From: Sphingomonas sp. CL5.1
Lineage (GTDB): Bacteria > Pseudomonadota > Alphaproteobacteria > Sphingomonadales > Sphingomonadaceae
Direction: 5' to 3'
Length of the DNA stretch: 64,000 nucleotides
NCBI RefSeq assembly: GCF_013344685.1
Contig: NZ_CP050137.1
Location: 3,465,001 to 3,529,000 of the forward strand
Shown piece by piece: positions 5,778-30,476 of the stretch. The position numbers and the translations under genes were made by a program. The notes beneath the pieces were generated by a model that searched no databases, had not been told where the DNA came from, and was given only the letters and a program-made list of their open reading frames with translations. Position 1 is the stretch's first letter, and every line of letters begins with the position of its first letter.

Positions 5778-5797
5778 TGCCCCCATCAATGGGGGCA
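5778..5797. promoter_or_regulatory. 20-bp palindrome, site A (TGYCCCYA-N4-TRGGGRCA)
   Basis: TGCCCCCA-TCAA-TGGGGGCA: the arms are perfect inverted repeats extending to 9 bases each side of a 2-base centre. Centre lies 64 bases before the SDR start at 5724. The same degenerate palindrome recurs at 13239, 30421 and 30457, with a close match at 26110, always between genes. Operator function is inferred. Confidence 0.6.
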
Positions 5798-5821
5798 CGA
5801 TTCCGAGAGATTTCCGGCGTT

Positions 5822-6175
5822 TCAGCCGCACTTGTCCGCCACCGCCTCACGCCGGTCGGTCAATTCCTCGAAGAAGCAGACGAAACGATCCTCCGCCAGC
5901 GCATCGCTGATCGGCATCGCCGCCGTGCCGGCCGTCGCCTTGAGCGCGGCAACCAGCCCTTCCAGATCGTCGGTCTCGCAATCATAGATCGCGAGATATT
6001 CCCACGGGAAAGGCCCGTCGCCACGCTGCGCCTCGGTCCGCGCGAAGCGCTGCCCGCCGACGACGCCGGGGAGTTTCAGGACGTCCGGGATATGGACGTC
6101 GGTGTACCAGCGGTTGAACTCCTCGCCCCGCCCCTCGACGGCATTGGTCATCACCATCAGCTTGCAGCGCCGCAT
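5822..6175 (-). CDS. EthD-like / dimeric alpha-beta barrel small protein
   Basis: 117 residues. The start MRRCKLMVMTNAVEGRGEEFN, with the following NRWYTDVHIPDVLKLPGVVGG, is the ferredoxin-like fold pattern of EthD/DUF4286-type dimeric barrels (a WY-x-x-VHIPD strand-loop with the conserved His). The ATG at 6175 lies 12 bases after the stop of the LysR gene, so the two are cotranscribed; an upstream in-frame ATG at 6388 would overlap the LysR gene and is rejected. Proteins of this family often accompany oxygenases in aromatic and alicyclic degradation and may isomerise, cyclise or lyse labile intermediates. No catalytic assignment can be made. Confidence 0.75.
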   Translation of the reverse strand: MRRCKLMVMTNAVEGRGEEFNRWYTDVHIPDVLKLPGVVGGQRFARTEAQRGDGPFPWEYLAIYDCETDDLEGLVAALKATAGTAAMPISDALAEDRFVCFFEELTDRREAVADKCG

Positions 6176-6186
6176 CGCCCGCCGCC

Positions 6187-7134
6187 TTACTCGCCGACGG
6201 CGAGCGCGTGCTGATCGCGCCCGTCCTCGGTATATGCGGCCCGCCCGGTGAGCTGCCGCATCAGCAACTCGGCGGCGGAGGACAATGGCTTGCCGGCCGG
6301 CGTCGCAATCTCGAACTGGCGCACAGCCCATGGCTCGGCGATCGCCACTGTCGCGATCCGCTCGAAATCCTCGATCGAAAGCATGCACTCGGGCTGGATC
6401 GTCACGCCGAGGCCGAACTCGACCAGGCTGCGCGCCGCCTCGACGCTGCTGACGTTATAGGCCGGCTCCAGCTCCCGCCCCAATGCGCGGGTCGCCTCGC
6501 GCAGCCGCTGCATCAGCGACGTATCGGGATGGATTCCGATCAGCTTCTCCTCCAGCAGATCGTCCAGCGTGACGCTGCTCTTCTCGGAAAAGGCATGGCC
6601 GATCGGATAGACCGCGACCAACTTGTCCGATCGATAGGGAATGGTGGTCAGCCCGCTACGATCGACATCATGCAGCGAGATGAATACCGCGATGTCGACC
6701 TCCCCGTTGCGCACCGCGCGCAGGTTCGCGGGATTGAAGCCCTCCTGGATATCGACGTCGATGAACGGGAAGTTGCGCTTGAACTCGCCGAGTTCGCGCG
6801 CGATGTGCTGGATGATGATCGCCGGCGTCGCGCCCACGCGCACATGGCCGCGCTCGCCGGTGGAGAATTCGCTCAACTCGCGCCGCGCATCCTCCAGGCT
6901 GCTGAACATCTGCTTCAGGCGATGCGCCAGCACCTGCCCGGCGTGGCTGGGCACCACGCCCTTCGGATTGCGTTCGAGCAACTTGATGCCGACGGTTTCC
7001 TCAAGATCGTGAATGCGCTTGGTCGCGGCGGAGGCGGCGATGTTCTCCAGCGCGGCAGCGCGCCCGATCTGGCGTTCTTCAATGGCCGCGAGGAACAGAC
7101 GCAGGGTAAGCAAATCCACCTTGCGGATGAGCAT
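6187..7134 (-). CDS. LysR-family transcriptional regulator
   Basis: 315 residues from ATG 7134 (MLIRKVDLLTLRLF), preceded by GGAGTGAG; an ATG at 7224 would add 30 unlike residues. The N-terminal winged helix-turn-helix is clear (GRAAALENIAASAATKRIHDLE), followed by the LLERNPKGVVPSHAG wing and a two-lobed effector domain (VRVGATPAI onward). It resembles the second LysR at 18231-19229 in the unusual GQIGRAAA-x-ENIA-x-S-x-ATKRI helix, so the two are paralogues. It leads an operon with the EthD-like gene. LysR proteins of this branch are often linked to aromatic catabolism; the inducer is unknown. Confidence 0.9.
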   Translation of the reverse strand: MLIRKVDLLTLRLFLAAIEERQIGRAAALENIAASAATKRIHDLEETVGIKLLERNPKGVVPSHAGQVLAHRLKQMFSSLEDARRELSEFSTGERGHVRVGATPAIIIQHIARELGEFKRNFPFIDVDIQEGFNPANLRAVRNGEVDIAVFISLHDVDRSGLTTIPYRSDKLVAVYPIGHAFSEKSSVTLDDLLEEKLIGIHPDTSLMQRLREATRALGRELEPAYNVSSVEAARSLVEFGLGVTIQPECMLSIEDFERIATVAIAEPWAVRQFEIATPAGKPLSSAAELLMRQLTGRAAYTEDGRDQHALAVGE

Positions 7135-7203
7135 GTGGACGCTCACTCCGTTCACGTCGCCGCCTCTCCTTTTGTAATGTTTGAAGTCGACGATCACATT
7201 ACG

Positions 7204-7223
7204 TTCTCCCCCCATAGGGGTCA
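7204..7223. promoter_or_regulatory. degenerate relative of the 20-bp palindrome
   Basis: TCCCCCCATAGGGGTCA lies about 79 bases before the LysR start at 7134. It keeps the C-run/TA/G-run-CA pattern of the palindrome at 5778, 13239 and 30421 but lacks the 4-base centre, so spacing differs. Listed only as a possible weak site. Confidence 0.25.
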
Positions 7224-7228
7224 ACGGC

Positions 7229-7251
7229 TCCGCCGGGCCACGCCCGGCGGA
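7229..7251 (-). terminator. hairpin after TonB receptor gene
   Basis: TCCGCCGGGC and GCCCGGCGGA form a perfect 10-bp stem with a 3-base loop, beginning 11 bases past the receptor stop at 7262 (minus strand). No strong T-run follows, so it may be a GC-hairpin terminator without a classical U-tract. Confidence 0.55.
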
Positions 7252-7261
7252 AACCGCACGG

Positions 7262-9715
7262 TCAGAAGGATATTGCGAAGGTCACGCCATAGGTCGCGGG
7301 CATGCCGGCGAAGCGCGTGACGGTGTCGTAACCGGAAACAACATTGGTCCAGTAATAACTGTTGAAGATGTTCTTGCCCCAGACGAACGCGCGCCAGCGG
7401 TTGTCGGCGCTTTTTATGCCGATCTGCCCATCGACCAGCGCATAGCTGCCGATGCCATAGACATCGGTCACGCCGGGCGCCTTCGCCGTGACGGCCGCCG
7501 GGGTGGTGTCGCCGCCGACCACCGAGATCGTATCCGAACGATAGGTGATCGACGCCCCGACGAAGCCGGCCAGGGAATTGCCCAACGGCTGCTCGAAATC
7601 CGTCGACACCGCGATCTGGTGCTTGGGCGTGAACGGTATCCGCGTGCCGGCGAAGTTCACGTTGGGCGTGCCGCCCGCATCGACGCCGACGTAGCGATCG
7701 ATCCTGGAGTCCAGATACGTATAGGCGGCATTGACGCTGAAGTGCCGCGTGGGGTGGATGGACGCCTCCAGCTCGAAACCCGTAATGTGCGACTTGGGAA
7801 TGTTCTGGATCACGTCGAGCTGGCCGAACACCGGATCGAGGAACTTGGTCCGCAACTGCTTGTCTGAATAATCGTAATAGAATCCGGCGCCGTTGAGTTG
7901 CAGCGTGCGATTGAGCAGCGTCGCCTTGAACCCGCCTTCATAGGAAAGCACCGATTCCTGACGCACCGGGTCGTACTGGCCGAACACCGTGCCGTTGACG
8001 GTCGGGAAGCTGCCCGCCTTGTAGCCTTTCGACACGTTGGCATAGAGCAGGATGCCGGGCCGGGGCTTGAAGTCGATGCCCGCGCGCCACGAGACGTTGT
8101 CCTCATGCAACGTGTTGTTCACCCGGCCCGGCGCGTACAGCGGAAGCGACGGATCGACGGCTGTCGGCGGCTGGGTGGTGCTGACGTTCATCGTGACGCA
8201 GGTGCCCGGCTGGTAAGGGCCGGTGAGGTTCGGATTGCCGCTCAGCAGGTTGGAGAAGAAATGGAGCAGGTTGCCCGCATAATAGGGCGCTTCCGTATCC
8301 GTTTCGCAGAACGAATATTTGTCCTTCGAATTGGTGTAGCGGACGCCCCCCTTCAGGGTCAGGTTGGGCAGGATGTCATATTCGAGGTTCCCGAACGCGG
8401 CATAGTTGGTCAGCGTCTGGTCGCTGGTGCCCACGGTGGTCTCGAACGGCTCGCCGAAGACCGTGCCGAAATACAGGTTCGCCGAGGTGTAGCTATATTG
8501 GTTGCCCAGCGCCTGATGAACGATGCTGCGCTCGTAATTGCCCCCGATCACATAGCGTAACGCGCTCGACCCGCCATTCGACAGGCGTAGTTCCTGCGTG
8601 AAAGATTTGATCGATCCGTCGTCGAGCGGGATTTCGAAGACGTTGAGCGCGGAGGCGTCGAAGTCCGTCCCGGCATGTTCGCGATAGCGGACGTAATTGC
8701 TCAGCGAGGTGAGCGTGCCGATCCCACCGATATCGAACTCGGCGCGAAGGGCGGCCTGGTACATGTAATTGTCCCGGAACGGCACCTTATGGTTGGGATA
8801 ATACCAGGAACTCTGCGACCAGTCGCTCGCGCGCGGATTCAGCGGCGTGAACGGCGCATTCTCGACCGCGGGGGGCACCCAGCCGATCTGTTGCGGCTGG
8901 AGCGCGATATATTGCGCGCCCTGCGTCTCGCCATTGTCCTTCCAGCCGTTGAGGTTGAGCGTGAACCGCGCCGAACTGGAAGGCTCATACGATAGGATCA
9001 GGCGCCCCTCGTAATTCTCCGCCTTGCCGTTGCGGTCACCGGGGCGGCTGGTGCTGTATTGCCAGCCGTCGGCGCGCTCGAAACGGCCCGCCAGCCGGGC
9101 GCTCAACGTGTCGGTCAACGGGCCGCTGACATAGCCCTCGCCGATCACCTGGTTGAAGCGGCCGTAGCTGAGGCTTGCGCCGGCCTTGAGCGTGTCGGTC
9201 GGCTTGGCCGCGATATAGTTGATCGCGCCGCCCGTCGCATTCTCGCCGAACAGGGTGCCCTGCGGCCCCTTGAGCACCTCGATCCGCTCGAGATCGAACG
9301 CCGAATGCTGTGTCAGCGCCGGAAAGGCCAGCGGCTGCTCGTCGATATAGACGCTGACCGACGGATAGGCCGCCAGCGAGGTCTCGTAGAAGCCGACGCC
9401 GCGCAACGTATAGACCGGCGCGCCGGTGATGCCCTGAGTGAACGACAGGCCCGGCACGCTTTGCGCGACGTCCTGAAGGCTGCTGATCTGCTTCTGTTGC
9501 AGGTCCTGCGCGCCGAGCACCGCCACCGACAGGCCGACATCGTTGAGCTTCTGCTCGCGCTTGTTGGCGGTGACGACGATATCGCCGATCGTGCCCTGTT
9601 GCACGGCGGGCGCATCGTTCGCCGCGGCCACTCCGGTCTGGGCAAGCGCCATCGAATGCCAACCGATCGCAAGCGCGCTGACGGCGGCATATGCCCCAAT
9701 CCTGATACCAGACAT
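7262..9715 (-). CDS. TonB-dependent outer-membrane receptor
   Basis: 817 residues. A signal peptide ends at SMALA-Q near residue 25. The plug domain starts with GDIVVTANKREQKLNDVG and contains the VPGLSF, LRGVG and ERIEVLKGPQGTLFGENATGGAINYI motifs; the rest is a 22-strand barrel ending in a terminal Phe (TFAISF). Sequence is close to the receptor at 27132-29498 throughout, including the EDNVSW-x-AG-x-D-x-KPRPGIL and KGYKAGSFP stretches, so these are paralogues. The Sphingomonad-type receptors of this class import plant or xenobiotic ligands as well as siderophores. Neighbours (aldehyde dehydrogenase, nitronate monooxygenase-like) point to a carbon substrate rather than iron. Ligand unknown. 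Confidence 0.93.
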   Translation of the reverse strand: MSGIRIGAYAAVSALAIGWHSMALAQTGVAAANDAPAVQQGTIGDIVVTANKREQKLNDVGLSVAVLGAQDLQQKQISSLQDVAQSVPGLSFTQGITGAPVYTLRGVGFYETSLAAYPSVSVYIDEQPLAFPALTQHSAFDLERIEVLKGPQGTLFGENATGGAINYIAAKPTDTLKAGASLSYGRFNQVIGEGYVSGPLTDTLSARLAGRFERADGWQYSTSRPGDRNGKAENYEGRLILSYEPSSSARFTLNLNGWKDNGETQGAQYIALQPQQIGWVPPAVENAPFTPLNPRASDWSQSSWYYPNHKVPFRDNYMYQAALRAEFDIGGIGTLTSLSNYVRYREHAGTDFDASALNVFEIPLDDGSIKSFTQELRLSNGGSSALRYVIGGNYERSIVHQALGNQYSYTSANLYFGTVFGEPFETTVGTSDQTLTNYAAFGNLEYDILPNLTLKGGVRYTNSKDKYSFCETDTEAPYYAGNLLHFFSNLLSGNPNLTGPYQPGTCVTMNVSTTQPPTAVDPSLPLYAPGRVNNTLHEDNVSWRAGIDFKPRPGILLYANVSKGYKAGSFPTVNGTVFGQYDPVRQESVLSYEGGFKATLLNRTLQLNGAGFYYDYSDKQLRTKFLDPVFGQLDVIQNIPKSHITGFELEASIHPTRHFSVNAAYTYLDSRIDRYVGVDAGGTPNVNFAGTRIPFTPKHQIAVSTDFEQPLGNSLAGFVGASITYRSDTISVVGGDTTPAAVTAKAPGVTDVYGIGSYALVDGQIGIKSADNRWRAFVWGKNIFNSYYWTNVVSGYDTVTRFAGMPATYGVTFAISF

Positions 9716-9852
9716 CTTCCTCTCCTCAGGGATATGTTATGATTTCCATGCGGATGCCTGAGGCGACCAGTTCCGACCCGCCCCAGCCATCGATTGCCCG
9801 CCCCTTTGCGGTTTCGTGGAGGAACGGACCCCCGCCGCTCCCCGTGATTGCT

Positions 9853-10935
9853 TCACCCGAAGCTGACGCGCTCCGCCTGCGATTTGAGCGTCGTGACCGT
9901 CTCGTCGATCAGCCGGCGCAGCACGTCCGCCGCGGGCGGCAGGTCGCGGATCAGGCCCGAACCCTGCCCGGCCGGCAGCGGCTGGAGATCCTTGAGGTCC
10001 GCCTCCGCCGCCGCGAAGCGCGCCGGCGCGATGACGATGCGCTGCAACGGATAGGGCAGCATCTCGTTCTCCCTGCCCTCCCACACCTCGGTGAAGCGGT
10101 TCTGGAGCTGGCGGACGTAAAGCCCGTCAAACAGCAGCGAGCGGATCGTGGTGTCGTTCTTCGCCTCGACCAATGACTGCTTGTAGTTCGGGCCGACGCT
10201 CGATTCCTCGCTGCCGATGAAACGGGTGCCGACCCACACGCCCTGCGCGCCCTGCGTCAGCACCGCCGCGATCTGCGCGCCGGTGACGATGCCGCCGGCC
10301 GCGACGACGGGAACGGTCGCGAACTCCAGCACCTCCGCCAGCAGGGTGATGAGACCGACATCGCCGGTATGGCCGCCGCCCTCGGTGCCCTGCACCACCA
10401 CCACGTCCGTGCCGTTGCGGATCGCCGCCGCCGCATGGGAGGCGCGGCCGACGATGCTGATCGTCTTGACGCCACGTTCATGGCAGGCGTCCACCACCCA
10501 TTTCGGCGTGCCGAGCGCGCAGGCGATCACCTCGACATTGTGCCTGAAGCAGATCTCCAGCTTGGCTTTGGCGTCCTCGATGCCCATCGCCTGATCGTCG
10601 GCGGGCTTCACCTCGACGCCCTGCGCGCGGATCTCGGCCTCCAGCTCGGCGATCGGGCCGGGCAGCGACGGCAGTTCCACCTCGCCCTTGTCCTTTGGCG
10701 CGCGCAGCGGGAAACCGATATCGACGCAGATCGGCTTCTTCGTGCGGCCGCGAGCGAGGATGATCTCCTGCTCCACCCGCTCCGGCGTGGGCGAGATCGC
10801 GGCGATCGTGCCCAGCCCGCCGGCTTCGGACACCGCCGCCGCAAGCGGGCCGAAAGCAACGCCGCCCATGCCCGCCTGGAGAATCGGATATTCGATATTG
10901 AGCAGATCGCACAGCGGCGTTTTCAACTTTGGCAC
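9853..10935 (-). CDS. nitronate monooxygenase-like FMN enzyme
   Basis: 360 residues from a GTG at 10935 that has AGGAGA 7 bases upstream; the ATG at 10983 has no ribosome site. The (beta/alpha)8 FMN fold is clear: YPILQAGMGGVA at the start, VDIGFPLRAPKD, the FMN phosphate loop VVQGTEGGGHTGD, VVAAGGIVTGAQIAAVLTQGA (split at V) and GTRFIGSEESS. The GGGHTG motif is the class mark of 2-nitropropane dioxygenase-type proteins. In such clusters members may act as enoate or alpha,beta-ketone-oxidising enzymes rather than on nitronates, so reaction is open. 244 bases separate it from the cupin gene upstream; it may share the transcript of the aldehyde dehydrogenase operon. Confidence 0.82.
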   Translation of the reverse strand: MPKLKTPLCDLLNIEYPILQAGMGGVAFGPLAAAVSEAGGLGTIAAISPTPERVEQEIILARGRTKKPICVDIGFPLRAPKDKGEVELPSLPGPIAELEAEIRAQGVEVKPADDQAMGIEDAKAKLEICFRHNVEVIACALGTPKWVVDACHERGVKTISIVGRASHAAAAIRNGTDVVVVQGTEGGGHTGDVGLITLLAEVLEFATVPVVAAGGIVTGAQIAAVLTQGAQGVWVGTRFIGSEESSVGPNYKQSLVEAKNDTTIRSLLFDGLYVRQLQNRFTEVWEGRENEMLPYPLQRIVIAPARFAAAEADLKDLQPLPAGQGSGLIRDLPPAADVLRRLIDETVTTLKSQAERVSFG

Positions 10936-11179
10936 GGAAAATCTCCTGTAATCGCGACGACGATCACCACCGCTAAAGGTCAAGCGATCGATTTCTTCGT
11001 GGGGATGATTACGCGCGATCCGGGAGCGTCCAATTTTTCATTCGCGAACTGCCGCTTCATCGACGGCGAATTCTGCACGCCATCTTTGCGCGACGGCTGA
11101 TTACAACGACTCCATCGCCGCCGACCACGTTTGCCGGCGGCGTTCATCCACGCCAGTTTCGGGTTCGGACGAGGGTCGA

Positions 11180-11665
11180 TCAGTCCTGCGTGAACTGGGT
11201 GAAACTCTCGTCGAAATAGCTGCCGGTGCCGAGCGGCGCGGCACGCACGAGCGCGGCGAACATCGTCGCCGGCTTGCCGTCCAGCGCGCGCCAGCTATGC
11301 GGCACACCGCGATCGACGAGGATATCGCCGGTTCCCAGCTCGACCGTCCCCGCCTCCAGCGACAGTTCGATGCGGCCGCTCAATATGATGAGATAGTCGA
11401 TCGTGTCGGTCGCATGCCATGCGGCGGCGGTGTCCGGTTCGACCCGGAACATCACGGCGAAGCTGGATTTCCCGAAGGTGGACACGCCGAACGGGCCGGC
11501 GGCCTCCTCCCGGCCGCGATTGTCGACCGGGAAATCCCCGGTCTGCCAGATGATCGCCGGCGACGACTGGCATCCCGGAATATCGCCGAGGCTGGTGTCG
11601 GATATGACGCAGGACTTGCCGTTCTCGTTGAGCCCGGTGACGATGCGGCGGTTTGTGAAGGTCAT
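11180..11665 (-). CDS. cupin-domain protein
   Basis: 161 residues with one conserved beta-barrel cupin: motif 1 around AWHATDTIDYLIILSG-RIEL and motif 2 around LVDRGVPHSWRA. The His of HATDT, the Glu/Asp side of motif 1 and the His of VPHSW could bind a metal, though motif 1 has Asp-Thr-Ile-Asp where many cupins have a second His. The first 60 residues form a partly conserved N-terminal arm. It starts 14 bases after the aldehyde dehydrogenase stop and is therefore in its operon. Small cupins in such operons act as isomerases, lyases or dioxygenases; none can be assigned. Confidence 0.8.
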   Translation of the reverse strand: MTFTNRRIVTGLNENGKSCVISDTSLGDIPGCQSSPAIIWQTGDFPVDNRGREEAAGPFGVSTFGKSSFAVMFRVEPDTAAAWHATDTIDYLIILSGRIELSLEAGTVELGTGDILVDRGVPHSWRALDGKPATMFAALVRAAPLGTGSYFDESFTQFTQD

Positions 11666-11679
11666 GCCGATCCCCCCGC

Positions 11680-13167
11680 TCAGCCCAGCCTGGGCTCGCC
11701 TTCGAGGATGATGGTCTTGGCTTCGAGGAACGGCATCAGCCCCTCGGTGCCGCCCTCGCGGCCGATCCCCGACTGCTTGAAGCCGCCGAACGCGATCGAG
11801 AAGTCCGTGCGGAACCAGTTGTGGCCCACCGTGCCCGCCTGAAGCTGGCGCGCGACCTGATAGGCGCGCGTCGCGTCGTTGGTGAACACCGACGAGTTCA
11901 GCCCGAACAGCGTGTCGTTGGCGATCTCGACCGCATGCTCCTCGCTATCGGCCGGGATGATGCTGACGACCGGGCCGAAAATCTCCTCGCGCGCGATCGT
12001 CATGCGGTTGTCGACGTTCGCGAAGACGGTCGGCTCGACGAAATAGCCGCGATTGAGATGCGCCGGACGGCCGCCGCCGGTCGCGACCGTCGCGCCCTCC
12101 TCGCGGCCCTTGGCGATATAGCCCTCGACGCGGTCGCGCTGCCGCGCCATCGCCAGCGGCCCCATGCCGACCGAGGCGTCGGCCGGATCGCCCACCCGGA
12201 TCGCCTTGAACGCCTCCGCCATCGCCTCGGCGAAGGCGTCGTGGCGGTGCTTCGAGATCACCAGCCGGGTGAGCGAGGAGCAGACCTGCCCGCTCAGCAT
12301 CGGGGCATAGGCGGCGATATGCGAGGCGGCTTCCTCCACATCGTAATCGTCGAGGATCACCGCCGCCGACTTGCCGCCCAGCTCCAGCGTGCAGCGCGCG
12401 ATGCGCTCGCCGCAGATCGAGGCGATCTTCTTCCCCGCCACGCTCGATCCGGTGAAGGTGATCTTGTCGATGGCGGGATTGCGCACCAGCAGCTCGGACA
12501 CCTCGCGATCGGCGGTGACGACGTTGAGCACCCCCGCCGGCAGGCCGATCGCCTTCGCGATCTCGCCGAAGACCAGCGGGCCGCCCGGTGATTCCGGCGA
12601 CGCCTTGAGCACCACGGTGCAGCCCGCGATCAGCGCCGGCGCGCACTTCCACGCGGCGAGGTTCGCCGCGCCGTTCCACGGCACGATCGCGCCGACCACG
12701 CCGACCGGCTCGCGGACGAGGAAGCTCGCCACCGCGCCCGGCGAATGCAGCGCCTCGTGCCGCTCGACCCACTGGAAGGTCTCGGCCAGCCCGGCGTAAT
12801 AGTCGAAGATCTCCGGCACGCCGCCCATGAACGCATCGGCGACCGGACGCGTCACGCCCACCTCGGACGTCCAGATGCTGCTGATGTCGGCAAGCCGCCG
12901 GCGCAGCTCCGCCGCGAAGGCGCGCAGATAGGTGGCGCGCTCGGCATGCGTCATGCGCGGCCACGGCCCCTTGTCGAAGGCATGCCGCGCGGCGGCAACG
13001 GCGCGGTTCATGTCGTCCGCCTGCGCTTCCGCCACCCGAAGGAACAGCTCCTCGGTCGCCGGATTGATGACGTCGATCCGGGCGTCGCTCGACGGCGCCA
13101 CCCAGTCGCCGCCGATGAAGAACTGGTCGGGCCGCTCGAGAAGGTCGGTGACGGAAGCGGTGGACAT
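11680..13167 (-). CDS. aldehyde dehydrogenase (NAD(P)+)
   Basis: 495 residues, full length. Present are the IGGDWVAPSS start, IVPWNGAANLAAWKCAPAL (cofactor side), FTGSSVAGKKI, the general base Glu in LELGGKSA, and the catalytic Cys in SGQVCSSLTRL, then the EEIFGPV and GGFKQSGIGREGG motifs. ATG 13167 has GAGGAGAG 7 bases upstream; the ATG at 13221 is less likely. Oxidises an aldehyde to the acid in the cytoplasm. First gene of an operon with the cupin. The shared 20-bp palindrome (13239-13258) is centred 81 bases upstream, tying it to the Rieske and SDR operons. Confidence 0.93.
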   Translation of the reverse strand: MSTASVTDLLERPDQFFIGGDWVAPSSDARIDVINPATEELFLRVAEAQADDMNRAVAAARHAFDKGPWPRMTHAERATYLRAFAAELRRRLADISSIWTSEVGVTRPVADAFMGGVPEIFDYYAGLAETFQWVERHEALHSPGAVASFLVREPVGVVGAIVPWNGAANLAAWKCAPALIAGCTVVLKASPESPGGPLVFGEIAKAIGLPAGVLNVVTADREVSELLVRNPAIDKITFTGSSVAGKKIASICGERIARCTLELGGKSAAVILDDYDVEEAASHIAAYAPMLSGQVCSSLTRLVISKHRHDAFAEAMAEAFKAIRVGDPADASVGMGPLAMARQRDRVEGYIAKGREEGATVATGGGRPAHLNRGYFVEPTVFANVDNRMTIAREEIFGPVVSIIPADSEEHAVEIANDTLFGLNSSVFTNDATRAYQVARQLQAGTVGHNWFRTDFSIAFGGFKQSGIGREGGTEGLMPFLEAKTIILEGEPRLG

Positions 13168-13238
13168 GATATCTCTCCTCGGACTCGCGAAAGGCACATC
13201 GCTCGGCGGTGGTTCTATCACCGCGACTCAACGGCCGA

Positions 13239-13258
13239 TGCCCCCATATCTAGGGACA
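13239..13258. promoter_or_regulatory. 20-bp palindrome, site C
   Basis: TGCCCCCA-TATC-TAGGGACA matches TGYCCCYA-N4-TRGGGRCA at every defined position. It is 72-91 bases before the aldehyde dehydrogenase ATG and outside any gene. Likely an operator of that operon. Confidence 0.6.
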
Positions 13259-13375
13259 TGATGCGAGAGCCGGGTCTTCTTCACCCGACCGGATCAGATG
13301 ATGATCGCCCGGATAATATCGACATGGCTTCCGCCGAGGAGACAATCGCGACGCCGGCCCTACCCTCGTCGATCG

Positions 13376-14362: not shown

Positions 14363-14373
14363 ATAATTACCCC

Positions 14374-16683: not shown

Positions 16684-16781
16684 GTCTTTTCCCTTTTGGT
16701 TATACGCTAATGATAGTTAATCGCGAATCCTGCGCGGCATGGTTCCGTCGCCGAACGGTCAGCCCGACGCCAGATCCCGCT

Positions 16782-20642: not shown

Positions 20643-20811
20643 GACATCCGCTCCTTCCGCCCCGGATCGGGTTCGCCCATCGGCGCGATATGGCTAGGTC
20701 GGATAATGCCAGCCGCCAATTTGCGATTTTCGAAGTGGCGGTTCGAGCAGCTCGAACAGGCCGAGCACGCTCGACCGGCGACCGACAATCCCCGCGCCGC
20801 GCCAGGACATC

Positions 20812-21225: not shown

Positions 21226-21241
21226 CGCTATCGCTCCGTCA

Positions 21242-22453: not shown

Positions 22454-22457
22454 CCGT

Positions 22458-22955: not shown

Positions 22956-22984
22956 GGCGATGCCCTTCCCTGAGGTTCCGGCGA

Positions 22985-24130
22985 TCAAAGACGCATCGAC
23001 CTGGCGATGATGGTCTTCTGGATCTGCGAGGTTCCGCCGCCGATCGTCGACTGGACGCTTTCGCGCAGATAGCGCTCCATGTCCGCCTCGGGCAGGTTGG
23101 CGTGGCCGCCCAGCACCTGCATGCCGGTCAACGCGCAATGCTTGAGCGTCTCCGAGCCGTAGAGCTTCGCCATCGACACTTCGCGGCTCGCGGGAAGGCC
23201 CGCCGCCAGCATCGCCGCCGCCCGATAGACGAGGAGGCGGGCGGCATCGACCTGCGTCTGGCAGTCGGCCAGCATATGGCGGAGCACCTGGAAGTCCCAG
23301 ATCGGGCGGCCGAACTGCTCGCGCTCATGGGCATATTGCACGGCCTTTGACACCGCCGTCTGGGCATTGCCGGTATAGGCGCCAGCCACCGAGCAGCGCT
23401 CCAGTTCGAGATGCTCGACGATGATCTTCCAGCCTTCACCCTCCTTGCCGAGCAAGGCATCGCCCGGCACCTTGACCTCGTCGAGGAAGATCTCGGTCGT
23501 GCCGGTCGCATGGCGCGACAACGTCGGCAGCTTGTTGATGACGAGGCCCGGCGTGTCGTTCGGGATCAACAGGATCGAAAGACCACCGTGCTTGTCATCG
23601 GGGTCGGTGCGGACGAGCATCGCGATGACCACGTCGGTCGCGGCGGCGCCCGAACACCATAGTTTCTGGCCGGTGACGATCCAGTCGCCATTTTCGTCGC
23701 GCCGCGCCCGCGTCCTGGTGCTCGCCGCGTCGGAACCGGCGCCGAGCTCGGAGATCGACACCGAGAAACGGATCTTCCCGTCGATGAAAGGCCGGATATA
23801 TTTCGCCTTCTGTTCGGCGGTGCCGAATTTGGCGATGTTCATCGCGGTGAAGGTCGGGACGAGGATAGCCGCAGCGAAGTCGAACCCGAACTTGCCCAGC
23901 CCCTCCGCCATCAGCGTATAATCGAAAATATTGCCGCCGGCGCCGCCATCCGCTTCCTTGAAAAGAAGCCCAAGCCATCCCTGTCTGGCGATCTTCTCAT
24001 ACGCCTCATAGGGATAGTTGCGGTGCATGTCGCATTCGCGGACATATTCGACCGTCACCTCGCTATCCATGAAACGATTGACCGTCTCCAGCCATGTCGC
24101 CTGCTCATCGCTGAGGAAATTGGATTGCAT
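22985..24130 (-). CDS. acyl-CoA dehydrogenase
   Basis: 381 residues from ATG 24130 (MQSNFLSDEQ), with GGAGAG 6 bases upstream; upstream ATGs at 24154 and 24160 lack one. Three-domain FAD flavoprotein: N-terminal helices to GWLGLLFKEADGGAGG, middle beta domain with SVSISELGAGSDAAS and KLWCSGAAATDV, and a C-terminal bundle with REQFGRPIWDFQVLRHMLAD. The last motif reads IGGGTSQIQK, so the Glu that serves as base in medium-chain enzymes (YEGTSQIQ) is Gly; the base would have to come from another helix, as in long-chain and isovaleryl enzymes, or from a partner subunit. Introduces the double bond ahead of MaoC and the thiolase-fold protein. Confidence 0.9.
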   Translation of the reverse strand: MQSNFLSDEQATWLETVNRFMDSEVTVEYVRECDMHRNYPYEAYEKIARQGWLGLLFKEADGGAGGNIFDYTLMAEGLGKFGFDFAAAILVPTFTAMNIAKFGTAEQKAKYIRPFIDGKIRFSVSISELGAGSDAASTRTRARRDENGDWIVTGQKLWCSGAAATDVVIAMLVRTDPDDKHGGLSILLIPNDTPGLVINKLPTLSRHATGTTEIFLDEVKVPGDALLGKEGEGWKIIVEHLELERCSVAGAYTGNAQTAVSKAVQYAHEREQFGRPIWDFQVLRHMLADCQTQVDAARLLVYRAAAMLAAGLPASREVSMAKLYGSETLKHCALTGMQVLGGHANLPEADMERYLRESVQSTIGGGTSQIQKTIIARSMRL

Positions 24131-24208
24131 GCCGAACTCTCCGTTTGTGGTCATCGGCATTGGCGGTTCGCCGCACCGATATTCGATGCCTTGAACAGCT
24201 ATCCCCGC

Positions 24209-24241
24209 CTGTTTCGAAACCAAGTGATCATTTCGGAACAG
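24209..24241. promoter_or_regulatory. inverted repeat upstream of the acyl-CoA dehydrogenase operon
   Basis: CTGTTTCGAAA and TTTCGGAACAG are inverted arms matching at 10 of 11 positions with an 11-base spacer, centred about 95 bases before the ATG at 24130. A third GGTTTCGA lies just right of it. Possible operator for a dimeric regulator; unrelated in sequence to the 20-bp C/G palindrome. Confidence 0.35.
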
Positions 24242-24409
24242 CGGTTTCGAGAGAATCGAATGAGGGCGAAGATGTCGAAGATCGACGAACCAGAGGAAAT
24301 CAAACACGCGCGGCACAGCGGCGAGCGCCCGAAAAGGGATCGCGCTTGATATGCTCGATCACTCTTCGGACGCTCGCCGCCGTGCCAAAGCCGGCGGAGT
24401 CAGTATTTG

Positions 24410-25654
24410 TCAGCTCAACGCGTCGGCGACCCTCGCGGAGCGCGTCCATTTATCGACCTGCTCCAGCGAATGGCGGACGAGAACCTCGCCTTCGTGGAGA
24501 TAGACGAACGACTTCGCCCCGGATTCCATCCCGCTTTGCGTGCTCTCGATATTCGCAAGATCCTCAAGGAAGGCGTCGGCGATCGTCGCGGTGAAATGTT
24601 CGAGTTGCAACCGTTCACGCACGCTGGACGCCTTGGGCTGATAGAAGCGCGCCTCCCACGACGAGGTGTTGCGGGTGCGCGGCCAGAATTCGTGCGTCCA
24701 GAAGCGGCTCGCCGAAATCTGGATGTGCCAGTTGGGGAAGATCCAGTTGACGTCGCTCGACCAGTCCGCGCGTTTCGAGGGATTGACGCGCGGATGCTCG
24801 GCGAGCGGGTTCACCTGCCCTTCCTGCTGCGTTCCCGTCACCGTCTGGTTCGCGGGATAGAGCCAGCGCACCACCGTCCAGTTCGCCGGCGGGGCGTAGC
24901 CGGTGTTGAGCCACCCGGCGAGCGAGCGATGCGGCCCGAAGGAGCCGGCGTCGATCGGCCGGCTGCACGGATTTTCCTTGCCGGCATAGACCGGCGCCAG
25001 CGTTTTCGGATGGATCGACTGGATGTGGTAGAATTCGCTGAAATTGTCGGCGAGGCACTTCCAGTTCGCCTTGATCTCGCCGGTCAGGATCAGGCAATTG
25101 TCGGCGTGGGGATAGGGGATATTGGCGAACTGCTCGCCGAACGGGCCGAGGAATTGCTTCAGCGTCACTTCCGGCTGCGGCTGGAGGTTGATGAAGATCC
25201 AGCCGTCCCATAAGTCGCACGCCACAGGCGTCAGCCCGCATTTCTTCTTGTCGAAATCGAAGAAGCCACCTTCGTCGGGCACGCCGATCAGTTCGCCGGT
25301 GTTCTTGTATGTCCAGCTATGATAGCGGCAGGTGAAGCGGCTCGCCTTGCCCTCCTTGTCCATCACGACATGGTTGCCGCGATGCGAGCAGACATTGTGG
25401 AAGGCGCGGATCTTGCCGTCCTTCGCGCGGGTGACGATCACCGATACGTTGAGCACCGGGATTTCCTTGACGAAATACTGGCCCGGTTCGGGAATGCGCT
25501 CCTCGCGACCCGCGATCAGCCACGCGCGGCGGAAGATGCGCTCGCGCTCCAGCTCATATTGCTCGGGATCGGTATAGAGGCTGGCCGGCATCGGGCCGCC
25601 CGAGACGCCGACAAGGTCCGCGAGCCTCGGGCTGATCTTGCTCAGTTCATTCAC
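24410..25654 (-). CDS. Rieske non-heme iron oxygenase, alpha subunit
   Basis: 414 residues from a GTG at 25654 with GGGAGAG 6 bases upstream; the ATG at 25981 overlaps the next gene. The Rieske 2Fe-2S site is complete: Cys89-x-His91 (CSHRGNH) and Cys109-x2-His112 (CRYHSWTY). The mononuclear iron site shows in DNFSEFYHIQSIHPKT with both histidines and the bridging Asp. It hydroxylates or dealkylates a ring or side chain using electrons from a ferredoxin, and no dedicated ferredoxin or reductase is adjacent. The Fpr at 16782 is a conceivable donor. It follows the 112-aa orphan by 38 bases. Confidence 0.93.
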   Translation of the reverse strand: MNELSKISPRLADLVGVSGGPMPASLYTDPEQYELERERIFRRAWLIAGREERIPEPGQYFVKEIPVLNVSVIVTRAKDGKIRAFHNVCSHRGNHVVMDKEGKASRFTCRYHSWTYKNTGELIGVPDEGGFFDFDKKKCGLTPVACDLWDGWIFINLQPQPEVTLKQFLGPFGEQFANIPYPHADNCLILTGEIKANWKCLADNFSEFYHIQSIHPKTLAPVYAGKENPCSRPIDAGSFGPHRSLAGWLNTGYAPPANWTVVRWLYPANQTVTGTQQEGQVNPLAEHPRVNPSKRADWSSDVNWIFPNWHIQISASRFWTHEFWPRTRNTSSWEARFYQPKASSVRERLQLEHFTATIADAFLEDLANIESTQSGMESGAKSFVYLHEGEVLVRHSLEQVDKWTRSARVADALS

Positions 25655-25692
25655 GTCAACTCTCCCAATATCCGAAATGTCCTGGCGACCGC

Positions 25693-26031
25693 TCAACCAT
25701 AGGGTTGCAGGCCGCTCCCGATCTTCAGCGTGTGCGGCCAGGGCGAGTAAGGCACGCGCGACGCCTGATGCAGCTCGACAGCGATCGCCGCCTGCATCAG
25801 CGCGAGCAGCAGGCGGAACAGGCAGGCGACGTCGTCGGGCATGTCGTCGAGCGGATATTGCTCGACATAAGCGGTGGCCTCCTCCATCCGGGCGGTCATC
25901 GCCTCGTAGAAGCGGACGATGTCCTTGTATTCGGCGCCCGCGCGACGGTTCCAGCGATCGTTGGAGGTGGGAACGTCCCAATAATCGACGAATATCTCAA
26001 GATCTTCAAAGCCAGCGGGTAGTCTGCCCAT
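25693..26031 (-). CDS. orphan 112-aa protein preceding the Rieske oxygenase
   Basis: 112 residues, not recognised. It appears helical, acidic and aromatic-rich (DLEIFVDYWDVPTSNDRWNR, DIVRFYEAMTARMEEATAYVEQYPLDDMPDD split), with no signal peptide, no cysteine pair and no obvious fold motif. It starts the operon that contains the Rieske oxygenase, 38 bases ahead of it, and the shared palindrome is centred about 88 bases upstream. The residue pattern recalls small proteins found next to aromatic-ring oxygenases in sphingomonads. An assembly or accessory role is possible but unsupported. Confidence 0.7.
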   Translation of the reverse strand: MGRLPAGFEDLEIFVDYWDVPTSNDRWNRRAGAEYKDIVRFYEAMTARMEEATAYVEQYPLDDMPDDVACLFRLLLALMQAAIAVELHQASRVPYSPWPHTLKIGSGLQPYG

Positions 26032-26109
26032 TTCCGGTCATCCTCAATTGCGGGCCGCGCGAACGGCCTCTGTTTGAGGAAAAGGCTATGGAGCGAGGGG
26101 GCCGGCAAC

Positions 26110-26129
26110 AATCCCCACGCTGGGGGACA
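26110..26129. promoter_or_regulatory. 20-bp palindrome, site D (close match)
   Basis: AATCCCCA-CGCT-GGGGGACA matches TGYCCCYA-N4-TRGGGRCA at 13 of 16 defined positions. It is 79-98 bases before the 112-aa/Rieske operon and just after the LuxR-type gene stop. A 6-bp GC hairpin (26131-26145) next to it could be that gene's terminator. Confidence 0.45.
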
Positions 26130-26147
26130 AGGGCGCGCCGCGCGCCG

Positions 26148-27008
26148 TCAGGACAGGGCGATGCTGGGGCCGGAGAAGCCGAGCGCCACGTCACCGCAAT
26201 GCCGCAGATACCATAGCAGCAGTTCATGATGGCAACCGATGCCGAGCCGCCCGTAGAGCCGCTTGCGGTGCGTATTGACCGTCTCCGTGCTGATGCCGAG
26301 ATCGCTGGCGACGCAGCTCGCGCTCAGCCCGTAGAGCAGGCGCGCGGCCACCTGCATCTCGCGATGCGACAGGCCGACTTCGTTCAGCGAGAGATATTGC
26401 TCGATCAGCGGCAGCGTCGTGAGCGATTCGACCAGCCGCCGGCTCTGGCCGACGATCTCGACATGCTTGGCGACGATCGGGAAGAGGCTGGAAAACGCGC
26501 GGTCGATGCCCGGCAGATTGTCGACCGCCGTCACGCTGCGCGAGGCGGATCGCATCACGCTGAAGCCGATGACGCCGCCCGCCGTCCGCCCGCATATCAT
26601 CAGCCGCTCGATCAGCTTCTGGCTGCGGTAGAAATCGCGCAGGTCGCTGGTCGGCGCGTCGCAGGTCGCCATGCGGTAGAAGGTCGGCAGCTCGCATTGC
26701 AGCCGGCTGCCCTCCCCCATCTCACGGTCGTCGCGCCATAGGTCGCGCGCCATATAGACCTGCGCCTGCTGCCGCGCGGCGTTGCGATCGTGAAGGCTGA
26801 GACCGCAGGAAATATCCGGCCGGCCATCCTCCAGCCGGAAGAAGTGCAGCGAATCCGCCCCGCATATCTGGTCGAGGAAGGCCAGCAACTCACGTTGCAG
26901 ATCGCTGCGGCCGATCGCGCCGAAAAGCCGATCGTAAGCGCCGCCCATCGCGGGCGTCAGATCGACGACGGGGTTGACCCGCATAGCTGCTCCGATGCCT
27001 TGCGCCAT
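26148..27008 (-). CDS. LuxR-type (GerE helix-turn-helix) transcriptional regulator
   Basis: 286 residues from ATG 27008, preceded by GGAGAGG; an ATG at 27047 is less likely. The last 60 residues are a GerE/LuxR DNA-binding domain: LSHREMQVAARLLYGLSASCVASDLGISTETVNTHRKRLYGRLGI (split at L). The N-terminal 190 residues show no autoinducer-domain tryptophans and match nothing I know; they probably sense a ligand. A degenerate copy lies at 33523-34368. It sits between the Rieske operon and a TonB receptor, and LuxR-class proteins bind 18-20 bp palindromes, so it is my first candidate for reading the 20-bp element of this window. Confidence 0.87.
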   Translation of the reverse strand: MAQGIGAAMRVNPVVDLTPAMGGAYDRLFGAIGRSDLQRELLAFLDQICGADSLHFFRLEDGRPDISCGLSLHDRNAARQQAQVYMARDLWRDDREMGEGSRLQCELPTFYRMATCDAPTSDLRDFYRSQKLIERLMICGRTAGGVIGFSVMRSASRSVTAVDNLPGIDRAFSSLFPIVAKHVEIVGQSRRLVESLTTLPLIEQYLSLNEVGLSHREMQVAARLLYGLSASCVASDLGISTETVNTHRKRLYGRLGIGCHHELLLWYLRHCGDVALGFSGPSIALS

Positions 27009-27131
27009 CGCATCCTCTCCGCCGCATATTCGTGCCGGCATCCGCATTGTAACCCCTTTCGGGCGAATGTCACGCAGGTCCGGCGAAAAATCGAACGGTT
27101 GGCCGATTGATTGTGATGCGAAGGGGCGCCG

Positions 27132-29498
27132 CTACAGCCGGAACGACAGGCTGACGCCGTAGGTGGCGGGCATCCCGGCGAACCGCGCCACAGCGTCGGA
27201 CGACGTGATCGCGTTGTTCCAATAATATTGGTTGAAGATATTCTTGCCGAACACCGACACCCGCCACCGGCCGTCCGCGCTGGCGATCCCGGCGCGGGCG
27301 TCGACCAGCACATAGCCGTCGATGCCCTGCAACTTAAAGGTCGACGGGATCGCGTTCGCGGCATTCACGTCGCCGCCGACCACCGCGATCGTATCCGAAC
27401 GCATGTTCGCGCTCGCGCCGACGAACGCCTTCAGCCGGTCGGATATCGGGAATTCATAGTCGAGGTTCGAGGAAAGCTGATATTTCGGCGCGAACGGCAT
27501 CCGCGTATCGGCGAAGTCGGCTGGAAGCCCGCCGCCGCTGATCCCGGTGAAGCGATCGATCTTCGCGTCGAGCCAGGTGAAGCCGTTGGCGAAAGTCAGC
27601 CCATGGGTCGGACGCAACGTGAACTCCAGTTCGAAGCCCTTGATCGACGATTTCGGCACGTTGACCAGCGCATCCTGGATGCCGAAGAAGGACTGCACCT
27701 TCGAGCGAAGCTGCTTGTTCAGATAATCATAATAAAAGCCGGCGGCATTCACCTGCAACGCGCCGTCGAGCAGCGACGCCTTGGCGCCCGCTTCATATGC
27801 GGTGACCGATTCCTGCTTCACCGCGCGATACTGGACGAAGCTGGTCGCCGACACCGCCGGGAAGCTGCCCGCCTTGTAGCCGCGACTGACGTTGGCATAG
27901 AACAGCAGGCCGGGCCGCGGCTTGTAATCCAGGCCCGCCATCCACGAGACGTTATCCTCGGTCAGCGTATCCTTATATTGGCCCGGCGCGCCGGGCGGCA
28001 CGCCGTTGATCGTCGCGCCAAGATCGTTGCCCGCGAAACAATCCCCGGCATGGAAAGTGCCATAGGCGCCGCCGAACACCACATCGTAGAGGAACGGCCC
28101 GGTTCCCTTCGGGTCGCCGGTCAGATCGGTGTTGCAGATCGTCGCGCTGCTCTGCGCCTTGGTGTAGCGCGCGCCGGCCTTGAAGGTCAGCGTGCTGGCA
28201 AGATCGTATTCACCGTTCGCGAAAAAGGCGAAGCTCGTGAGCTTCTGGTAATTGCTGTAATGCGCGCGATCGAGGTTGTAACCGAATACGGTGAACACCG
28301 TTTCGTTGACCGACGTATAGCGATAATCGAAATCGGCGACCTGATCGACCTTGTTATTGGAATAATTGCCGCCGACCACCCAGCGGAACGGCCTGGACGC
28401 GCCGTTGCTCAGCCGCAATTCCTGAAAGAAGCTGCGGATCGAGCCGTCGCTGATGAGGTCGTTCACCGTATAGGGCAGGCCGTCGCGATCCGCACCCTGC
28501 CGCTGGTTGAATTGCAGGTAAGAGGTGAGCGAGGTCAGCGTGACGTGATCGGCAAGGTCGATGTCGCCGCGCAGCGACGCCTGCCAGAAATCGCTGTCGC
28601 CGAACGGCACGAAGCCCGCCACCGGCCCGCCCCAGTCGGCCGCGCGCGGCGTGGCCGGCGAAAAGGGCACGGTGGGGATGATCGGGTTGGCGATCGGGTT
28701 CTGCTGGACATAGCCGATATATTGCGGCGCCTCGGTATCGCTCTTGTCCTTCCAGCCGTTGACGTTGAGGCTGAAGCGCGCGCCGGACGTCGGCTCCCAG
28801 TCGATCAGCAGGCGGCCCATGTAATTGCGCACCTTGCCGTTGCGGTCATTCGGGCGACTGTTGCTGATCTGCCAGCCGTCCATCGTCTCGACGCGGCCGG
28901 AGACACGGGCCTTGAGCGTGCTGCTGAGCGGGCCGCTGACGAACGCCTCGCCATTGGCCTCGTTGAACCGGCCATAAGTGAGGTTGCCCCCGGCGGAAAG
29001 CTCGTCGGTCGGCTTGGCGGCGATGAAGTTGATCGCGCCGCCGGTGGAGTTCTGGCCGAACAACGTGCCCTGCGGTCCTTTCAGCACCTCGACCCGCTCA
29101 AGGTCATAGGCCGAATGCACCGCCAGCGCCCCGAACGGCAACGGCGCCTCGTCGACATAGACCGAGACGGTCGGATAGGCCGCCAGCGAGGATTCGATGA
29201 ACCCGACGCCGCGCAGCGTGAGGATCGGCGTGCCGTTCTCCGAATTGGCGAACGACAGGCCGGGCACGGCCTGCGCGATATCCTTGAGGTCATTGATCTG
29301 TCGCGCCGCCAGCGCGTCGCCGCCGAGCACCGCGACGGTCGAACCGACGTCGGAAAGCTTCTGCTCGCGCTTGTTGGCGGTGACGATGATATCGGCGACG
29401 GCGGCCGGCGCGGCGTCGGCGGTCTGGGCGACGGCCGGCATCGAGGTGGCGACCGCCGCGAGTCCGGCGCTGATCGACAGGAATGTCGCGGATTTCAT
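27132..29498 (-). CDS. TonB-dependent outer-membrane receptor
   Basis: 788 residues. Signal peptide cleaves near MPAVAQ-T. The plug begins with ADIIVTANKREQKLSDVGS, then VPGLSF, LTLRGVGFIESSLAAYP, ERVEVLKGPQGTLFGQNSTGGAINFI. The barrel ends in SLSFRL, a Leu instead of the usual Phe. It is a paralogue of the receptor at 7262-9715, similar along its full length. Begins 33 bases after the SDR at 29532-30290 and is therefore in one operon with it, behind the paired palindromes at 30421/30457. Likely imports the substrate or an intermediate of the catabolic block. Confidence 0.93.
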   Translation of the reverse strand: MKSATFLSISAGLAAVATSMPAVAQTADAAPAAVADIIVTANKREQKLSDVGSTVAVLGGDALAARQINDLKDIAQAVPGLSFANSENGTPILTLRGVGFIESSLAAYPTVSVYVDEAPLPFGALAVHSAYDLERVEVLKGPQGTLFGQNSTGGAINFIAAKPTDELSAGGNLTYGRFNEANGEAFVSGPLSSTLKARVSGRVETMDGWQISNSRPNDRNGKVRNYMGRLLIDWEPTSGARFSLNVNGWKDKSDTEAPQYIGYVQQNPIANPIIPTVPFSPATPRAADWGGPVAGFVPFGDSDFWQASLRGDIDLADHVTLTSLTSYLQFNQRQGADRDGLPYTVNDLISDGSIRSFFQELRLSNGASRPFRWVVGGNYSNNKVDQVADFDYRYTSVNETVFTVFGYNLDRAHYSNYQKLTSFAFFANGEYDLASTLTFKAGARYTKAQSSATICNTDLTGDPKGTGPFLYDVVFGGAYGTFHAGDCFAGNDLGATINGVPPGAPGQYKDTLTEDNVSWMAGLDYKPRPGLLFYANVSRGYKAGSFPAVSATSFVQYRAVKQESVTAYEAGAKASLLDGALQVNAAGFYYDYLNKQLRSKVQSFFGIQDALVNVPKSSIKGFELEFTLRPTHGLTFANGFTWLDAKIDRFTGISGGGLPADFADTRMPFAPKYQLSSNLDYEFPISDRLKAFVGASANMRSDTIAVVGGDVNAANAIPSTFKLQGIDGYVLVDARAGIASADGRWRVSVFGKNIFNQYYWNNAITSSDAVARFAGMPATYGVSLSFRL

Positions 29499-29531
29499 AA
29501 AACTCTCCCTGGTTCTGTTTTGCGGAATCGC

Positions 29532-30290
29532 TCAGTAAAGCGTGTAGCCGCCGTCCACCGGCAGGGTGACGCCGGTGACGAACGACGGCTCGTCGGACAG
29601 CAGCCACATCGCCGCGCGTGCCTGCTCCACCGGCTCGGCGGCGCGGCGCAGGGCGTGCTTGTCCTCCAGCGTCTTCACATAGTCCGGGTTCGCCGCGACA
29701 TATTCCATGTAGAGCGGCGTGCGCGTCGCGGACGGGGCGATCGCGTTCACCCGGATGTTCCTCTCGCCATATTCCGCCGCCGCCGCGCGGGTAAGCCCGG
29801 TGATGGCGTGCTTGGAGGCGGAATAGGCGGCGAGCTGGCTGTCGTAGATCAGCGCGCTGACCGACGATGTATTGACGATCGCCCCACCGCCGACGCGCAA
29901 CATCGCCTGGATCTCATATTTCATGCACAGAAACGTGCCGAAGGCATTGACGCCGAACACCCGCTGGAACTCCGCGAACGTCATGTCCGCGAGCAGGCCC
30001 GGCGCGTTGGCGATGCCGGCATTGTTGAACGCGCCGTCGAGCCGCCCGTAGCGCCGCTCCGCCGCCTCGACCATCGCCGCGACATCCTCCTCACGCGAGA
30101 TATCGGCGCGGACGAACTGGACGTTCAGCCCCTGCCGGTCCAGCTCATCGGCCAGCGCCGTGCCGCGCTCCACATTGAAGTCGGCAGCCGTCACCAGCGC
30201 GCCATGCGCGGCGAACAGCCGGACGGCGGCCTCGCCGATCCCGCTGGCGCCGCCCGTCACGACGATCGAACGCCCCTCGATACCCGCCAT
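29532..30290 (-). CDS. SDR-family NAD(P)-dependent oxidoreductase
   Basis: 252 residues; ATG 30290 with GGAGAGA 5 bases before. Classical SDR: GIEGRSIVVTGGASGIGEAA with TGxxxGIG, Asp (ADFNVE) for NAD preference, NNAG, NTSSVSALIYD with the catalytic Ser, YSASK with Tyr/Lys, and the end TLPVDGGYTLY. It is the first gene of an operon with the TonB receptor. Two full matches to the shared palindrome lie 131-150 and 167-186 bases upstream. It is not closely similar to the SDR at 4966 in the substrate loop, so substrates probably differ. Confidence 0.9.
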   Translation of the reverse strand: MAGIEGRSIVVTGGASGIGEAAVRLFAAHGALVTAADFNVERGTALADELDRQGLNVQFVRADISREEDVAAMVEAAERRYGRLDGAFNNAGIANAPGLLADMTFAEFQRVFGVNAFGTFLCMKYEIQAMLRVGGGAIVNTSSVSALIYDSQLAAYSASKHAITGLTRAAAAEYGERNIRVNAIAPSATRTPLYMEYVAANPDYVKTLEDKHALRRAAEPVEQARAAMWLLSDEPSFVTGVTLPVDGGYTLY

Positions 30291-30420
30291 CAATCTCTCC
30301 TCAAGTCGCGTCCATCAGGCGCGGGCCGGCCGCGTTGCGCCGTTTTCAGCGCATCGATTCCAACGAGTAGCCGGCCGAAACCTCTGATCAACGCGGTTAA
30401 CATTGGCCAATAGCGGCCGA

Positions 30421-30440
30421 TGCCCCCAACGTTGGGGACA
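30421..30440. promoter_or_regulatory. 20-bp palindrome, site E1
   Basis: TGCCCCCA-ACGT-TGGGGACA, with a 14-base perfect inner palindrome CCCCAACGTTGGGG. It lies in the 354-base divergent region between the SDR (30290) and the TonB receptor (30645), which otherwise holds no gene. Its partner E2 is 36 bases away centre to centre. Confidence 0.65.
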
Positions 30441-30456
30441 TACCGGCTTGCGGCGC

Positions 30457-30476
30457 TGTCCCTACCGATGGGGGCA
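30457..30476. promoter_or_regulatory. 20-bp palindrome, site E2
   Basis: TGTCCCTA-CCGA-TGGGGGCA matches the degenerate palindrome at every defined position. The centre is 177 bases before the SDR and 178 before the receptor, so it could serve either promoter. The region to its right (30500-30640) is AT-richer and likely holds the receptor promoter. Confidence 0.6.

Follow-up and report, generated by a model that had tools for sequence, protein, structure and literature searches.

A lux-box-like palindrome in two catabolic gene clusters of Sphingomonas sp. CL5.1, the probable operator of a family of LuxR-type regulators

The lux box, the 20-bp dyad that serves LuxR of Vibrio fischeri as operator, has its centre near -42.5 according to PMC7585371. 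LuxR proteins that lack a luxI gene beside them are known as LuxR solos, the plant-associated OryR/XccR type among them; they have been surveyed, and altered ligand-pocket residues are linked in these accounts to possible ligands other than N-acyl homoserine lactones (PMC4338825, PMC4288048); a strict solo, as defined in PMC4338825, has no cognate luxI in its genome. Among regulators of degradation, TeiR of Comamonas testosteroni is presented as a LuxR-type positive regulator of testosterone degradation and EdcR as a catabolic repressor of sphingomonads (both PMC8700777), while PheR, an IclR-type catabolic repressor of sphingomonads, is reported to affect TonB-dependent receptors as well (PMC13273656). 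Here we analyse a stretch of 64,000 nucleotides of Sphingomonas sp. CL5.1 (contig NZ_CP050137.1, positions 3,465,001 to 3,529,000; hereafter the window, numbered from its first letter), in which a 20-bp palindrome, TGYCCCYA-N4-TRGGGRCA, precedes several catabolic operons. We consider it quite probable, judging from the sequences compared below, that LuxR-type transcription factors of one family, whose fold resembles that of quorum-sensing proteins, use this palindrome as their operator and would activate the catabolic operons of the window together with those of a second catabolic cluster.

The system resembles the lux box and LuxR in its 20-bp dyad, in a computed centre near -43 and in the predicted fold of the ligand- and DNA-binding domains; it differs in its half-site, which is TGYCCC here and another sequence in the lux box, in its catabolic genes, in the lack of luxI from the two clusters and in a ligand domain unseen by Pfam. 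It shares with the LuxR solos the absence of a neighbouring luxI, but has several paralogues in catabolic clusters with one operator. With TeiR it shares a degradation pathway under LuxR-type control, and with PheR and EdcR the control of catabolic genes in sphingomonads; those two are repressors, however, and PheR differs also in its family and in the operators of that family. EdcR is likewise a member of the IclR family. In searches of open-licence papers for LuxR-type control of sphingomonad degradation clusters or of steroid degradation, no description of the operator was found among the matches listed. Two candidate matches were set aside: the CrbR motif, in the part of its source that gives it, is a different sequence, and in the corresponding part of the PedR2 paper the matching letters are primers, with no motif found.

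A sequence-only reading of the window had described four full matches and one close match, all between genes and upstream of named operons. The pattern scan recovered the four as exact sites at 5778, 13239, 30421 and 30457, and all five sites lie outside called genes and upstream of catabolic operons (gene starts throughout are those of a simple in-house gene caller). Site A (TGCCCCCATCAATGGGGGCA, 5778-5797) is located 53 nt upstream of the gene of a short-chain dehydrogenase/reductase (SDR) oxidoreductase (4966-5724, minus strand), its presumed target, and site B (13239-13258) 71 nt upstream of an aldehyde dehydrogenase gene (11680-13167, minus strand). Sites D (30421-30440) and E (30457-30476) form the reported pair, with starts 36 bases apart, between divergent operons; D is on the side of an SDR gene (29532-30290, minus strand) and E on that of a TonB-dependent receptor gene (30645-32816, plus strand; alternative start 30723 possible). 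The weak site C (26110-26129), with three mismatches, lies 18 nt past the 3' end of a LuxR-type gene (26148-27047, minus strand; alternative start 26984 possible) and 78 nt upstream of a gene for a 112-aa protein (25693-26031, minus strand). Only the four exact sites exceed a score of 11 with the site matrix in the window, site C falling below; at this cut-off the haem and Baeyer-Villiger monooxygenase regions contain no site, in agreement with the first reading.

A scan of the whole genome and of related genomes, as suggested from the window alone, extended this picture. The genome (4.57 Mb, two contigs, C1 and C2) contains nine exact sites, the four of the window and five at C1:2,832,917-2,880,669, so that all nine are confined to two catabolic clusters, which are separated by about 0.6 Mb. 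As to its shared operator, the proposal of one catabolic regulon is favoured by the comparisons, but it was drawn too narrowly, since five more exact sites belong to the second cluster. That cluster (C1:2.83-2.88 Mb) also harbors one-mismatch sites at 2876593 and 2882512 and a two-mismatch site at 2876665; outside the two clusters, the only matches in the genome with at most two mismatches are C1:1825527 and C2:14919. The same pattern read backwards gave no exact match genome-wide against nine for the real pattern, which bears out the earlier contention that arms of this kind recur beyond chance; with up to two mismatches, however, the counts were 14 and 11, and matches at two mismatches are thus near chance. 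In the window alone, five matches with at most three mismatches were observed against 1.27 expected, and as 4 of 100 shuffles also reached five, this was rejected as too weak a test of chance. Exact matches were present in five of the 396 genomes scanned from the order: nine copies in the genome studied, two in Sphingobium sp. C100 (G258) and one in each of three others. Scaled from the three single-site genomes, with total bases estimated, about 0.01 exact sites would be expected in the Sphingomonas genome. None of a set of 60 relatives (36 of the same genus) had an exact match.

A -10-like sequence also tends to lie at a preferred distance from the palindrome. In 24 site-gene pairs from the two clusters and Sphingobium sp. 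C100 (two of the eight C100 matrix matches were omitted, one for its location within a gene and the other because the genes on its two sides converge), a TA begins at nucleotide 22 past the palindrome in ten and at nucleotide 23 in six, while any other offset up to 60 occurs at most three times; none of 5000 shuffles reached ten. In the window, such hexamers begin 22 nt past site A (TAGCCA, 5751-5756, minus strand), site B (TAGAAC, 13212-13217, minus strand) and site C (TAGCCT, 26083-26088, minus strand), and TAACCG (30394-30399) lies on the SDR side of site D. If the TA at nucleotide 22 opens the -10 hexamer, the palindrome would extend from about -53 to about -34 and be centred near -43. Site C, which the sequence-only reading counted as a close match, is unconvincing by its letters alone, with three mismatches; it nevertheless appears credible because of this geometry and because Sphingobium sp. 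C100 has a weaker counterpart at the corresponding position, where its orthologues of the LuxR and 112-aa genes adjoin. That counterpart, GTTCCCCCATCATAGGGATT, matches 8 of the 12 core positions and, as read from the printed sequence, is followed at nucleotide 22 by TAGCCT, the same hexamer at the same distance. In another genome (G370), the LuxR gene is followed on its 3' side by a site almost identical in letters to site C, but with no TA at nucleotide 22.

As the sites are perfect or near-perfect G+C-rich inverted repeats, they might alternatively work at the RNA level, forming the hairpin of a terminator or attenuator, or be the ends of a mobile element. This is extremely unlikely: with the -10-like TA 22 nt downstream in many cases, the palindrome would precede the transcript start and a transcribed hairpin therefore misfits, no T run directly follows the printed sites, and the DNA around the two SDR promoters differs. 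The SDR encoded at 29532-30290 and its copy in the second cluster are identical in 251 of 252 residues, and their DNA is 98% identical from the ribosome-binding site on; upstream, blastn found nothing in common between the two regions except the palindromes. Thus, a recently copied SDR gene stands behind two unrelated promoters, each with a palindrome pair.

The LuxR-type protein encoded at 26148-27047, beside site C, is the best candidate reader of the palindrome. Its family in this genome comprises five intact members, itself included, and one broken copy: two are in the second cluster, one is just past it, one is at 2.448 Mb and the broken one is in the window. The paralogues at C1:2844044 and C1:2870557 are further candidate readers. 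The GerE helix-turn-helix (HTH) domain, PF00196, was found in the window protein (E 9.9e-11) and in all ten family members tested; the autoinducer-binding domain PF03472 was absent in all ten from the matches at E<=10, a range in which the HMMER filters drop most very weak ones. The window protein is nevertheless predicted to have an autoinducer-binding-domain fold like that of quorum-sensing LuxR proteins, since its predicted fold matches the ligand domains of CepR2, VqsR and LasR and full-length QscR, RhlR and SdiA. In a sequence comparison with SdiA only the HTH aligned and the ligand domain did not, and with the nine invariant residues of TraR (listed in PMC4338825) compared by spacing only, the ligand domain being unaligned, Y98/D107 and E230/G240 could correspond to Y61/D70 and E178/G188. 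Most members of the family are closely similar in the stretch of the recognition helix. We would not class the protein among the LuxR solos defined by PF03472, because that domain was sought and not found. The homologues in PMC4288048 were collected by PF03472, according to its description of the search, and a family without a match to that model would have been missed there. Four matches to the luxI family PF00765 occur in the genome, none of them in either catabolic cluster.

Two side observations concern this family. The broken copy (33526-34368, minus strand; internal stops three TGA and one TAG) has about 57% identity to an intact second-cluster regulator near a palindrome pair. On the second contig, the palindrome TCTCCCCAGTTCTGGGGATA (C2:14919-14938; L147:1380) precedes a luxI homologue by about 100 bp, without a TA at the expected geometry; it may be a genuine lux box whose sequence is related.

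The association between palindrome and LuxR-type gene recurs in other organisms. Of the 396 genomes of the order, five have a relative of the LuxR-type protein (E<=1e-20), five have the exact motif and two have both (hypergeometric P 0.0013); in the set of 60 relatives, only G030 has such a protein. Fourteen loci with LuxR relatives outside the two clusters and Sphingobium sp. C100 were compared: two of G030, one each of G349, G370 and G389, that of the 2.448 Mb paralogue, and those of Peristeroidobacter, Caballeronia, two Burkholderia, Sphingobium (TKS and MI1205), Variovorax and Cupriavidus. With at least 11 of 12 arm positions matched, TGYCCC-Nx-GGGRCA occurs 18 times at x=8 against 19 times in total over 12 other spacings, each of which gives zero to five sites. 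G349, TKS and MI1205 carry copies of one cluster (79-92% DNA identity) with 10 of the 18 sites. Because of these copies, and because the loci L126 and L128 are also near duplicates, statistics that treat the sites as independent are indicative. Since the cut-off was picked while the first 14 loci were being viewed, it was applied unchanged to 18 held-out loci (29 were returned from 94 and 195 genomes of two genera, and 11 already seen were omitted), which gave 10 sites at x=8 against seven in total over the 12 other spacings.

The -10 distance was also found at these loci. In a set of 12 other-species sites (TKS and MI1205 dropped, G046 added), a TA begins at nucleotide 22 on at least one side in nine, or nine of 14 with two more G046 sites (L114), and at nucleotide 22 or 23 in 11 of 12; other offsets occur in zero to three of the 12. 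The control consisted of palindromes of G349 and G389 away from LuxR genes, taken in listed order (20 of 47 in G349, after skipping three at the LuxR locus, and 20 of 39 in G389), and had a TA at nucleotide 22 in 4 of 40 and at 22 or 23 in 7 of 40. At the held-out loci, 8 of 10 sites have a TA at nucleotide 22. In G046, the LuxR gene is followed by TGTCCCCCTTTCAGGGGACA, with a TA at nucleotide 22 on both sides, and then by two genes that, named from their translations, are hydrolase-like and flavin-monooxygenase-like (FAD type); in G030, two divergent genes, one of them coding for a homologue (43%) of the 112-aa protein, are separated by a palindrome pair with a distance of 38 bases.

Several observations weigh against assigning the palindrome to the LuxR-type family. 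A third of the site-gene pairs (8 of 24) in the two clusters and C100 have no TA at nucleotide 22 or 23, including the TonB side of site E, and one of the eight C100 matrix matches is inside a gene. At 8 of the 14 loci, that of the genome's own 2.448 Mb paralogue among them, and at 10 of the 18 held-out loci, no site reaches the 11-of-12 cut-off at spacing 8. The 40 control palindromes were not restricted to intergenic DNA, which may account for a low rate of TA among them. Moreover, co-location falls short of proof of binding, and LysR-like genes are also present in both clusters.

The last point bears on the alternative that a LysR-type regulator reads the palindrome, already named in the sequence-only reading for the gene at 6187. 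LysR genes occur at 6187 and 18120/18135, and 34546 is also LysR by its translation and similarity; two of the three proteins have close relatives (82% and 77%) in Sphingobium sp. C100, and the gene at 34546 is near a regulated TonB receptor. However, their best relatives in the second cluster reach only about 27-28% identity, and tblastn (E<=1e-8) gave no match to any of these proteins at the G030, G349, Peristeroidobacter, TKS, MI1205 and Variovorax loci, even though core palindromes recur at G030b and at the other five. In addition, LysR operators usually contain T-N11-A in an odd-centred interrupted dyad, and the symmetric T-N11-A is missing here because an even-centred dyad cannot hold it. 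A LysR reader (6187, 18135 or 34546) is thus improbable, and the comparative evidence favours a LuxR-type protein, as first proposed, although with five intact family members the reader may be a paralogue of the one in the window.

A TetR-type regulator, encoded at 37103-37813 beside a CoA-transferase gene, might instead read the palindrome as a repressor. Its gene is conserved in three of four motif-bearing segments, the second cluster and Sphingobium sp. C100 each having a close relative. We regard this reader as very unlikely, since upstream of the three TetR genes no site exceeds the matrix cut-off, since inspection by eye shows another word there, TAACAACCGTTYGAAA, shared whole or in part, and since no TetR is annotated in the TKS and MI1205 stretches, where the core palindrome occurs. 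The word TAACAACCGTTYGAAA, partial in the window, may be the operator of the TetR protein itself.

Taken together, the existence of the sites, their restriction to the two clusters, the spacing and -10 distance that they prefer and their recurrence beside LuxR relatives are read directly from the sequences, whereas binding, activation, the ligand and any division of labour among the paralogues are what we infer from them. The most likely reader is a ligand-responsive, LuxR-type activator family acting at a lux-box-like operator. A dimer of the window protein, of the second-cluster paralogues or of both would bind the 20-bp site, which, centred about 43 bp before the transcription start, would cover the -35 region, and RNA polymerase would be recruited as it is by LuxR at the lux box (class II activation). 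The likely ligand would be a pathway substrate or intermediate, and genes for uptake (TonB receptors) and oxidation (SDR, aldehyde dehydrogenases and Rieske oxygenase) in both clusters would be induced together, so that one response would join the two clusters across about 0.6 Mb. The catabolic regulon is thereby provided with a testable operator, a promoter position and a candidate regulator. In a broader view, towards which we lean only slightly, this is a LuxR branch with the quorum-sensing fold, outside the Pfam model, that turned from cell-cell signalling to the sensing of pathway compounds and whose members in alpha-, beta- and gammaproteobacteria keep the layout TGTCCC-N8-GGGACA-N21-TA. 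Variovorax, a betaproteobacterium, and Peristeroidobacter, which we take to be a gammaproteobacterium, are among the palindrome-bearing loci. If so, the targets of many uncharacterised degradation clusters could be read from this layout, a signature for a LuxR-type family that a PF03472-based survey would miss, and, should the ligands be pathway compounds, a quorum-sensing fold would have found a second use in the sensing of nutrients.

Second-cluster sites are found upstream of a beta-propeller (lactonase-like) protein gene, between a TonB receptor and an aldehyde dehydrogenase gene, as a pair 38 bases apart before the SDR gene, and before another TonB receptor gene; the one-mismatch sites precede two further aldehyde dehydrogenase genes. 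The neighbouring genes encode acyl-CoA dehydrogenase, CoA transferases, MaoC, HpcH/HpaI, MmgE/PrpD, enoyl-CoA hydratase and CoA-ligase proteins (CoA, coenzyme A), and because of these enzymes the cluster likely encodes a CoA-linked catabolic route. Homologues of many second-cluster genes are present in Sphingobium sp. C100, where seven of the eight matrix matches above 11 on the two contigs examined are intergenic. The aldehyde dehydrogenase behind site B has 88% identity to a second-cluster homologue that itself has an upstream one-mismatch site; its gene is followed in the window by that of a cupin protein (11180-11665, minus strand).

The 112-aa protein has no match in Pfam or NCBIfam and has homologues in Sphingobium sp. 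C100 and G030; in C100, as in the window, its gene adjoins that of a Rieske ring-hydroxylating oxygenase alpha subunit (24410-25654, minus strand). Downstream of the TonB receptor gene at 30645-32816 is a gene for a SnoaL-like protein (32858-33415, plus strand), and downstream of the divergent SDR gene is a second TonB-dependent receptor gene (27132-29498, minus strand). Paired palindromes with starts 36-38 bases apart between divergent genes were seen at three loci (L049:720/758, window 30421/30457 and C1:2872109/2872147). The TonB receptors of window 27132-30290 and C1:2872232-2874026 are 98% identical over 196 residues and 88% over 113 more, the second-cluster copy being short (313 aa), and the similarity of the SDR and TonB genes between the clusters would be consistent with a recent duplication or gene conversion.

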